From: Verrucomicrobiota bacterium
GTDB taxonomy: Bacteria; Verrucomicrobiota; Verrucomicrobiia; Methylacidiphilales; UBA1321
Length of the DNA stretch: 64,000 nt
Direction: 5' to 3'
Assembly: GCA_013286145.1 (NCBI GenBank)
Contig: JABDGH010000003.1
Span: 1-64,000, forward strand
The position numbers and the translations under genes were made by a program. The notes beneath the pieces are model-generated. The model did no database searches. It worked only from the letters and a program-made list of their open reading frames with translations, and had not been told where the DNA came from. Below are positions 5,615-25,787 of this stretch, in pieces; positions within the stretch are counted from its first letter, which is position 1, and each line of letters starts with the position of its first letter.

Positions 5615-6523
5615 TTACTCGTTTTTACGAGGGAACATTTCGCGGATGATTTTTTGAATGAGCGCGGCGGTTGCCTGGCATCGTTCACCGGCAGTTTGAA
5701 CGCTCACGGCAAATTTTTTACTGCGGGATTCCGGCGGCAATTCATTCGAGAGCAGATACGCATACCCGAGCAACGGGGTCAGGTGATTATTGAGATCGTG
5801 GAGGTGCTTGCGCAGCACCTGGCCCTGGGCAAAATCACCATCGCCTAGATGGAGATGTGATTCGGCCAGTTTCCAGTCGGAAGGAGTGGTAACCTTGAAG
5901 TTGATGTCGTGGTAGAGGACGATCCGCACCGGATGTCCCATTTTTTCAACTACCGCAGTGTCATCCGTAAACGTGTCACCTGATTGCAGGGCGATTTTAT
6001 AGGCATCACGCAACAGTTTGGTGCGAAAAATCTGCGGTGTTTGCACCGTCCATAGCTGGGATCGATCTATCGTCTGTTTTACCAAGCCATCCTCGGCCAC
6101 TTCTTTCAGGGTGTCGCTGCAAGGCGCGCCGCAGACAGCGGCAGCCGATAGCTTGGCCGCAGCCAGAACGACATCGATGAGTTCCTTGGTAATAAAAGGA
6201 CGCGCCGCATCATGGATCATGACGAATTCGGAGGAGTCTGAAACGGCGTTGAGGCCGGCTTGAACTGAGTCCTGGCGTTGCGCTCCGCCCGGCACCAATC
6301 GGATGTTGCCCTTGCCGTGCAACGGGGCAATGACGGCATTCATTTCCCCTTCGCTGCCCGGGCGGACAACAAGAATGATTTCCGACGGCACCTGCGTTTG
6401 CAGCAGCCGTTCCAAGGTGTGGAGGAGAAGTGGCCGACCTCCCAGCGGAGTCAGCAGCTTATCAAAACCCATGCGTTGACTGCGACCAGCAGCCACAACA
6501 ACCGCGCTCAAGGATTCGCTCAT
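5615..6523 (-). CDS. ispD: 2-C-methyl-D-erythritol 4-phosphate cytidylyltransferase with C-terminal DHp-like extension
   Basis: AAGRSQRMGFDKLLTPLGGRPLL, MIHDAARPFI, WTVQTPQIF, FTDDTAVVEKMG; C-terminus LRKHLHDLNNHLTPLLGYAYLL resembles a histidine-kinase H-box. Confidence 0.9.
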   Translation of the reverse strand: MSESLSAVVVAAGRSQRMGFDKLLTPLGGRPLLLHTLERLLQTQVPSEIILVVRPGSEGEMNAVIAPLHGKGNIRLVPGGAQRQDSVQAGLNAVSDSSEFVMIHDAARPFITKELIDVVLAAAKLSAAAVCGAPCSDTLKEVAEDGLVKQTIDRSQLWTVQTPQIFRTKLLRDAYKIALQSGDTFTDDTAVVEKMGHPVRIVLYHDINFKVTTPSDWKLAESHLHLGDGDFAQGQVLRKHLHDLNNHLTPLLGYAYLLSNELPPESRSKKFAVSVQTAGERCQATAALIQKIIREMFPRKNE

Positions 6524-7299
6524 GGTTTTTTCTTCCCGTCCTTGTCTTTATCATTTTTCAAGGCCGTGTCATCCTTGTAAAAGACGGGGCCGTTCTTTTT
6601 CAAGTTGGCAACGAAAACGGCCAGATTCTCGCCGACCTGCTTGTCATTGATCAACCGTCCCAGCGCACCCTGCCCTGTCTTGGCCTGAACCAGCAAGTCA
6701 TCCGCATTGCTTACCATGGACTTGAGCTTGGCAATCGTATCCTTCAAATCCTGGGTGCTGGTATCGGAAAGCACGTCGTCATTAAACTTAGTGATCATAT
6801 CGTCCACCTTGGTCGCGATGTCGTTGGCCCTCTGAATCAGAGGCTGCGCGCTATTGGCCAATTCATCCAGACCCACCGATTTTTGCCCTTCAATCAATTG
6901 CCCGTCTTTGACAAAGGACTTCTTTTGATCTTCAGGCGTGTTGTCCGGATATTCGACCGGCTGGACTTCGACAAAGCGATCACCCAAAAGACCGGAGCTT
7001 CCGATGATATATTTTGCGTCTGTGCGTATGCCGACTTTTTTATCGATCTTTAAGTGAACCTCCACTTTTTGGGTGTCCGGCACAGGATGAGGATCGCTCG
7101 TAACCTTGCCGATGCGGGCACCGGAAAGATAGACATCGGAACCCTTGAGCAGGCCGCTCGCATTGGGAAAGCGGACGGTAAGATTATAGGTCGGCTTGAA
7201 AAGATCGTTTACCGCCCCGAAAAAAATAATCAGGGTGCAAATGACCGCGATGCCTCCCATGAGAAAGAGGCCGACTTTGGTTTCGAGATTTTGTTTCAT
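6520..7299 (-). CDS. mlaD: MlaD/MCE-family substrate-binding protein of an ABC transporter
   Basis: N-terminal TM then VRFPNASGLLKGSDVYLSGARIGKV MCE motif; adjacent to ATPase and permease genes. Confidence 0.88.
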   Translation of the reverse strand: MKQNLETKVGLFLMGGIAVICTLIIFFGAVNDLFKPTYNLTVRFPNASGLLKGSDVYLSGARIGKVTSDPHPVPDTQKVEVHLKIDKKVGIRTDAKYIIGSSGLLGDRFVEVQPVEYPDNTPEDQKKSFVKDGQLIEGQKSVGLDELANSAQPLIQRANDIATKVDDMITKFNDDVLSDTSTQDLKDTIAKLKSMVSNADDLLVQAKTGQGALGRLINDKQVGENLAVFVANLKKNGPVFYKDDTALKNDKDKDGKKKP

Positions 7300-7311: not shown

Positions 7312-8094
7312 CTAGAATATAGCATCACTGGCGTCCGATATACCGTTAACAAAGCGTTTCACGATGGGGTCTTCCGATTCAAGCACCACTTTGGGTTCAC
7401 CCACACAATAGATACGTCCCTCGTGAAGCAAGGCAATCCGGTCACCAACTTCCCGGGCGCTGACCATATCGTGCGTGACGATGACGGAGGTCATGTTCAA
7501 TTCGTCTCCGAGCCGGATCATTAGCTTATTGATGCTGTCGGCCACAATGGGATCAAGCCCGGAGGTGGGCTCATCATAGAGCATCAGGGCTGGTCGCGCG
7601 ATGGCTGCCCGAGCCAGGGCGACGCGTTTGCGCATGCCGCCGCTTAATTCGGCAGGCCATTTATTTTCCTGATTGGGTAGATCGACGATTTTGAGCGCGC
7701 GCGCAACCTCGGCGCGAATCTCGTCTTCCTTGACGCTCCTTCTTTCACGCAACGGAAAGGCGACATTTTCTCCCACCGTCAGCGAGTCGAAAAGCGCGCC
7801 GTTCTGAAAAAGCATCCCGGTCTCTTTGCGCAAGGGAACCAATTGCTCTTCGGAGAGCTTGGCCAGATCCTTGTCGCGAAACCACACCTCTCCCTTATCG
7901 GGCTGCATCAGGCCAAGGATGTGCTTGAGGAGCACGCTCTTCCCGCCGCCGCTACGTCCGATAACGACGAGGTTTTCTCCCTCGCGAATTTCGAGATCGA
8001 CACCGCGCAATACTTTTTGGCGACCGAGTTTTTTCTCCACGCCAACAAGACGCACCAGTGGCGGGGATTTGGATTGGGAAGTGGAATCGGTCAC
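7312..8094 (-). CDS. mlaF: Mla-type ABC transporter ATP-binding protein
   Basis: GRSGGGKSVLLKHILGL Walker A, ELSGGMRKRVALARAAIARPALMLYDEPTSGLDP. Confidence 0.92.
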   Translation of the reverse strand: MTDSTSQSKSPPLVRLVGVEKKLGRQKVLRGVDLEIREGENLVVIGRSGGGKSVLLKHILGLMQPDKGEVWFRDKDLAKLSEEQLVPLRKETGMLFQNGALFDSLTVGENVAFPLRERRSVKEDEIRAEVARALKIVDLPNQENKWPAELSGGMRKRVALARAAIARPALMLYDEPTSGLDPIVADSINKLMIRLGDELNMTSVIVTHDMVSAREVGDRIALLHEGRIYCVGEPKVVLESEDPIVKRFVNGISDASDAIF

Positions 8095-8101
8095 GGGAGG
8101 T

Positions 8102-8881
8102 TTAAAGAAGAGCGTTGAGTAGGAAAGTGAAGAAAAAATTCGCGATCAAAACGATGATGAAGGAATCAACGACGGCTTCGGTAGTCGCCAGGCCGACGCC
8201 TTCAGCCCCCTGCGAAGCCTCCAGGCCTTTGTTGCAACCCACGAATAGAATGATGATGCCGAAAAAGAATCCTTTGACCAAGCCGATCCAGACATCCTTG
8301 GCGTGTGTGTACTTGACCATGTTGTCCCAGTAGTAAACGCCGGGCACCGAGAGAATATCGACGGCAACATAGTAACCGGAACCGATGCCGCAAAGGATGG
8401 CCAGGCCGACCAAAACGGGCATGGAAATGAGCATGGCAAGAAAGCGCGGGACGATGAGATATTCCGTGGGATAAACCGCGAGCGAACGCAGCGCGTCGAT
8501 CTGCTCGGTGATTTTCATCGTGGCCAATTCTGCGGCCATGGCCGATCCGACCCGGCCCGCGATCATGAGTGCGCACAACACCGGCCCCAATTCCCGGCAC
8601 ATGGCAATGGCCACCACGGGTCCAACACCGGAGCTAAGTCCCAGATCCTTGAATTGAAATTCGGTCTGGGCGGCAAAAACCGCACCGATAAAACCGCCGG
8701 TAATAATGACGACAGGCACTGATTTTCCCCCGATAAAATCGATCTGGTGAATGAGGAGTTGGAGACGAATCCGGTAATGGAAGAGGCATCGGATGGTATC
8801 TTGAAATAGAAAAACAATCTGTCCTGCCATCTGGAGCATGCGCATGAAGCGGGCACCGAGTTGCTGCGCGTAGCGGGTCAT
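8102..8881 (-). CDS. mlaE: MlaE-family ABC transporter permease
   Basis: AMCRELGPVLCALMIAGRVGSAMAAELATMKITEQIDAL, typical of MlaE permeases. Confidence 0.93.
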   Translation of the reverse strand: MTRYAQQLGARFMRMLQMAGQIVFLFQDTIRCLFHYRIRLQLLIHQIDFIGGKSVPVVIITGGFIGAVFAAQTEFQFKDLGLSSGVGPVVAIAMCRELGPVLCALMIAGRVGSAMAAELATMKITEQIDALRSLAVYPTEYLIVPRFLAMLISMPVLVGLAILCGIGSGYYVAVDILSVPGVYYWDNMVKYTHAKDVWIGLVKGFFFGIIILFVGCNKGLEASQGAEGVGLATTEAVVDSFIIVLIANFFFTFLLNALL

Positions 8882-25586: not shown

Positions 25587-25663
25587 TGGTGGGCCTGACT
25601 GGGCTCGAACCAGTGACCCTGCGCTTATCAAGCGCATGCTCTAACCAACTGAGCTACAGGCCC
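25587..25663 (-). tRNA. tRNA-Ile (GAT anticodon)
   Basis: GGGCCTGTAGCTCAGTTGGTTAGAGCATGCGCTTGATAAGCGCAGGGTCACTGGTTCGAGCCCAGTCAGGCCCACCA. Confidence 0.98.
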
Positions 25664-25714
25664 TGGTGTTATCTAAATGCTTTCTTTACTTTAGCCTACT
25701 GCCCGGCGCAGGCG

Positions 25715-25787
25715 TGGAGACAAGGGGATTCGAACCCCTGACCTATAGCTTGCAAAGCTACCGCTCTACCAACTGAGCTATGTCCCC
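25715..25787 (-). tRNA. tRNA-Ala (TGC anticodon)
   Basis: GGGGACATAGCTCAGTTGGTAGAGCGGTAGCTTTGCAAGCTATAGGTCAGGGGTTCGAATCCCCTTGTCTCCA. Confidence 0.98.

Follow-up and report, generated by a model that had tools for sequence, protein, structure and literature searches.

On the reverse strand of the window, which is the whole stretch of 64,000 nucleotides analysed here, ispD is the last gene of the arrangement mlaE-mlaF-mlaD-ispD. Its open reading frame starts with ATG at position 6523, runs to 5615 and encodes a protein of 302 residues, whose C-terminal peptide agrees with the one quoted in the first-pass annotation. The protein is a complete IspD, the MEP cytidylyltransferase and an essential enzyme of isoprenoid synthesis, followed by a two-helix DHp (HisKA-type) module without HATPase, which is referred to as the tail in the following. 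The features of the locus are located as given here:

8102..8881 (-): mlaE, permease (Pfam MlaE, 1.5e-75)
7312..8094 (-): mlaF, ABC ATPase (Pfam ABC_tran, 2e-33)
6520..7299 (-): mlaD (Pfam MlaD, 1.6e-16), overlapping the ispD start (ATGA)
5615..6523 (-): entire ispD gene with its stop codon, 302 aa, encoding IspD plus the C-terminal DHp module
5852..6523 (-): IspD catalytic domain, residues 1-224 (Pfam, invariant residues, Foldseek)
5831..5851 (-): short linker, residues 225-231 (helix 214-226 ends here and the next helix begins at 232)
5636..5830 (-): DHp (HisKA-type) helical hairpin, residues 232-296 (profile, fold, conservation)
5741..5830 (-): DHp helix alpha-1, residues 232-261, with the H-box HDLNNHLTPLLGYAYLL (AF2 helices)
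5798..5800 (-): codon of His242, the predicted phosphoacceptor, invariant in 20 of 20 tails
5786..5788 (-): codon of Asn246 (H+4), where HisKA proteins have their phosphatase residue; the same in all 20 tails
5636..5719 (-): second DHp helix (alpha-2), residues 269-296, which contains the invariant R294 (AF2 helices)

The IspD domain and the gene neighbourhood

In a Pfam scan of the 302-residue protein the IspD family (PF01128) was matched by residues 6-224 with an E-value of 3.3e-62, which confirms the first-pass annotation in that the IspD motifs end at about residue 225 and the reading frame continues beyond them. The residues R17, K22, D105, R108, R154, T162 and K210 are invariant across 36 IspDs. 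Furthermore, the IspD part adopts the normal IspD fold in the AF2 model and matched solved IspDs in Foldseek with E-values down to 5.9e-24. No HATPase domain was found in the same Pfam scan; as the HATPase_c/CA domain is lacking, the protein is not a histidine kinase.

The ATGA overlap between ispD and mlaD (7299..6520) is present, and the linkage to an Mla lipid-transport operon that had been derived from it holds insofar as mlaEFD-ispD is a real gene arrangement. It is, however, not specific for the tail: mlaEFD-ispD is also kept in the tail-less families f4, f5 and f9, and the tail-bearing ispD of genome G025 has no adjacent mla genes, so that a tail-specific link to Mla was rejected. In one context (L170, genome G008) the MlaD protein encoded upstream of ispD comprises 384 residues, and part of its MlaD match is repeated; neither MlaE nor MlaF was matched within the 11 kb read there. 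The start of a citramalate/isopropylmalate synthase-like protein (YDTTLRDG) was seen near ispD, in convergent orientation, in four contexts of families f2 and f6 (L171, L172, L175 and L176). Elsewhere in the window, at 25587-25787, tRNA-Ile(gat) and tRNA-Ala(tgc) adjoin each other, an arrangement like that in rRNA operon spacers.

Similarity of the tail to histidine kinase DHp domains

The residues behind the IspD domain had been interpreted as the H-box and second helix of a HisKA/DHp domain with no HATPase. When the last 77 residues were scanned alone, HisKA (PF00512) was matched with an E-value of 6.8e-4 and 20.1 bits, which is below the gathering score of 26.9. Among 20 tails, HisKA was matched by 15; the best match was that of an f3 tail (2e-7, 31.4 bits), which lies above the gathering score, and the majority of the individual tails fall under this Pfam cut-off. 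The next match of the tail in the same genome was the DHp domain of a hybrid kinase on C21 (HisKA, HATPase_c, Response_reg), and the next profile matches in other genomes were mostly kinases with HDxNN or HExNN boxes, HATPase_c being present in all six that were checked.

The AF2 model of the full protein, a monomer model, places the DHp helices at residues 232-261 and 269-296. Modelled alone, the tail forms a hairpin of two helices (positions 2-31 and 37-66 of the tail) with a pLDDT of 92.6. All of the top 18 matches of this model in the PDB (Foldseek) were histidine kinase DHp chains, ZraS superimposing with an rmsd of 1.0 Å over 62 columns; the E-values were weak, 0.058 at best, as expected for a hairpin of 72 residues, and the ranking was one-sided. 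Both in sequence and in fold, the best matches of the tail are the DHp domains of true histidine kinases. The HisKA profile match, which the first-pass annotation had named as the check, the fold matches to kinase DHp domains and the recurrence in relatives (see below) thus bear out its interpretation, and its numbering of the H-box histidine as His242 is correct (codon at 5800-5798).

Conserved residues and selection

Five residues, namely R238, H242, N246 (H+4), G253 and R294, are invariant among the 20 tails. The window protein has D at H+1 (D243), as do 16 of the 20 tails; the remainder carry Q (two), R (one) or A (one). All of these replacements belong to the f2/f6/f7 group, where they affect four of five tails while H and N stay; in f1, f3 and f8 the H-box reads HDxNN or HDxSN and D243 is kept. 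On a helical wheel of helix 1, R238, H242, N246 and G253 are turned from the hydrophobic face by 108-172 degrees, and such an outward placing is not required by packing alone. In HisKA proteins the requirement for an acid (E/D) at H+1 is confined to kinase activity, and that for T/N at H+4 to phosphatase activity (PMC3510030). As N246 is kept in 20 of 20 tails but D243 in 16 of 20, receiver docking, phosphotransfer or phosphatase work would fit the pattern better than a kinase substrate. The lack of the H+1 acid in four of 20 tails would argue against a conserved role as kinase substrate, and H242 is a plausible phosphoacceptor.

The tail is under purifying selection. In two f3 pairs its dN/dS was 0.080 and 0.059, with values near 0.05 for the IspD core, and the tails of G009 and G010 differ by 13 synonymous and no replacement changes. 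Synonymous sites are near saturation in the wider pairs of f1. A looser dN/dS of 0.32 was obtained for an f8 pair, in which the tail includes a proline-rich extension. The f8 IspD-DHp proteins (L019 and L020; 381 and 412 residues in total) carry this long extension after the DHp module, with repeated SPLSP-like units.

Distribution and evolutionary history

We found ispD in 94 of 98 relatives searched, and in many genomes of the same order the match reaches the last residues of the tail. The census of the tail, for which protein ends were read and the tail profile was run over 62 genomes of the order, yielded 22 genomes with a tail from families f1, f2 (in part), f3, f6, f7 and f8, distant tails sharing 23-28% identity. 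The fusion, which had been proposed to be sought in related genomes, hence recurs in six families. Families f4, f5 and f9 and four of the five genomes of genus g12 are tail-less; for f4 this was read from the protein ends in three genomes and taken from the absence of a profile match in the rest. Samples of 385 genomes from the class and 390 from the phylum gave no tail-like match of comparable strength outside the order, and no degraded tail was seen downstream of the tail-less ispD genes of genus g12.

On a tree of the IspD core (53 rows) five tail changes are forced by well-supported branches, which are most naturally read as a single gain at the base of the order followed by four losses. 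According to held-out profiles the f1, f3 and f8 tails resemble each other more than they resemble kinases, and those of f2, f6 and f7 give a mixed picture, the most divergent ones (one of f2; f6 and f7) scoring no better than some kinases. Independent captures of the tail were set aside, as a single origin is favoured by the held-out profiles. An artefact, be it the sequencing frameshift to a neighbouring gene that the first-pass annotation had named as a refutation or a misassembly joining ispD to a kinase gene, has nothing in its favour and is practically excluded, because the tail is conserved in one single reading frame in 22 genomes, including the single-contig assembly G018, and because purifying selection acts on it with low dN/dS.

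Tail retention and two-component signalling

All 22 tail-bearing genomes encode at least 21 receiver domains (PF00072), compared with 2-11 in the tail-less genomes of the order, the high counts being lower bounds (at least 62 at the top). HATPase domains number from 12 to at least 62 in tail-bearing and 3-11 in tail-less genomes of the order. ABC ATPases, which served as a control, overlap between both groups (27-54 and 14-30, respectively). Within genus g12 the tail-bearing genome G025 encodes 21 receivers and its four tail-less sisters 4-7, at similar numbers of ABC ATPases (30 versus 25-30). Tail loss and receiver poverty agree in all four independent pairs (p = 0.125 in a two-sided sign test), a comparison for which the receiver threshold was chosen after the counts were known and in which significance is out of reach with only four events. 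In f4 and f9 this link is confounded by genome reduction. Furthermore, receivers are not sufficient for the tail, since other Verrucomicrobiota outside the order possess many kinases and no tail. The retention of the tail except in lineages poor in two-component proteins suggests a direct link between metabolism and signalling.

With respect to a possible partner, no receiver gene was recognised beside ispD in eleven contexts, inspected by eye on the ORF starts. A comparison for a receiver orthologue that is present in G025, G021 and G023 and absent from G020, G033, G024, G015 and G014, which covered all but a few receiver regions of G023 and G021, gave no convincing candidate. The hybrid kinase L208 and the CpaE/TadZ-like protein L218 were set aside as generic, and the DHp-REC protein L165 was dismissed as a universal partner, its DHp part matching only a few f2 proteins.

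Proposed function and alternative explanations

With a probability of roughly one half, we consider the tail to be a receiver-docking DHp module, which would couple IspD and thereby the state of the MEP pathway to two-component signalling. IspD would work as a homodimer, and its two C-terminal hairpins would pair into a DHp four-helix bundle without a CA domain. In Bacillus subtilis IspD the C-terminal helix contributes to the dimer interface (PMC5099578), and in the DHp bundle of ChpT, which cannot autophosphorylate, the N-termini are adjacent (PMC3433190), so that the bundle could plausibly continue the dimer axis of IspD. On this bundle R238, H242, N246 and G253 would point outward and form the surface where receiver domains of the two-component network dock, and toward these it would most likely act as a phosphotransferase of the Spo0B/ChpT type or as a phosphatase. 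Signals would run in one of two directions: a response regulator would be informed of the state of IspD (MEP/CTP supply), or a receiver would adjust IspD through the shared dimer axis. The more specific proposal that IspD is a metabolic sensor, in which the phosphotransfer or phosphatase activity of the DHp module toward a response regulator would depend on whether MEP or CTP occupies the enzyme, is rather doubtful in our view; if it were true, an essential housekeeping enzyme would replace the sensor and kinase half of a two-component system.

The main rival, which we regard as somewhat unlikely, is that a captured DHp hairpin merely strengthens the IspD homodimer and carries neither phosphate nor receiver traffic. 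Dimerisation is inherent to DHp hairpins, IspD already uses its C-terminal helix in the dimer interface (PMC5099578), D243 is not conserved, and no partner receiver was found in the eleven ispD contexts or in the eight-genome presence/absence comparison. A role in dimerisation and stability, however, leaves unexplained why the outward H242 and N246 are invariant across six families with distant tails at 23-28% identity, and why within the order the tail is absent solely from receiver-poor lineages. H242 might also be the substrate of another histidine kinase, whose CA domain would phosphorylate it in trans and so switch IspD on or off; IspD would then be the output, and no response regulator would be involved. 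The f1, f3 and f8 tails would suit this purpose with their HDxNN or HDxSN boxes and the retained D243, and their genomes encode at least 17 HATPase domains; against it stand the Q, R or A at this position in four of the five f2/f6/f7 tails, where H and N stay, and the fact that a histidine kinase normally phosphorylates its own DHp domain. We judge phosphorylation in trans to be quite improbable.

Relation to known systems

Spo0B and ChpT are known precedents for DHp bundles that serve phosphotransfer and have no kinase activity. Both are dimeric histidine phosphotransferases with a DHp bundle as their core; they are devoted to phosphorelay, and their C-terminal domain is kinase-like but has no function as a kinase. 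Judging from its sequence and models, the tail would resemble them as a DHp hairpin without autokinase activity whose H-box histidine is available to receivers, but its partner domain is IspD. With the DHp domains of hybrid histidine kinases with HDxNN boxes (L002:2091-529 and L190:2334-661) it shares the H-box histidine, the N at H+4, the two-helix hairpin and the profile and fold matches, and with L190:2334-661 additionally the G at H+11 and the Y at H+12. Unlike these kinases, IspD-DHp has neither an HATPase/CA nor a receiver domain, is placed behind a metabolic enzyme and does not always keep the acid at H+1. The protein also resembles IspD and the IspDF fusions in its complete IspD catalytic domain with the expected invariants and, as in IspDF, in having a C-terminal extension, which is here a signalling-type module, whereas in IspDF it is IspF, an enzyme acting later in the pathway.

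The literature searched contained no IspD-DHp fusion, nor any paper naming both IspD and HisKA. If the tail docks receivers, the flux through an essential pathway would be tied straight to two-component signalling without a kinase domain, and the fusion would show the reuse of DHp as an enzyme add-on. Because receiver-poor lineages lost the tail repeatedly, the signalling idea can be put to the test.

Small proteins in which a DHp-like hairpin (HDLNN or HDFNN) is followed by a receiver, without HATPase, were observed in genomes G012 (L165:1489-2127 (+), 212 aa) and, in similar form, G025 (L215:1134-1919 (+)). The tail has the DHp-like hairpin, the HDLNN motif and the missing HATPase in common with L165; it is fused to an enzyme, whereas the hairpin of L165 is fused to a receiver domain. 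In this order, DHp modules without a CA domain may be a more general theme.
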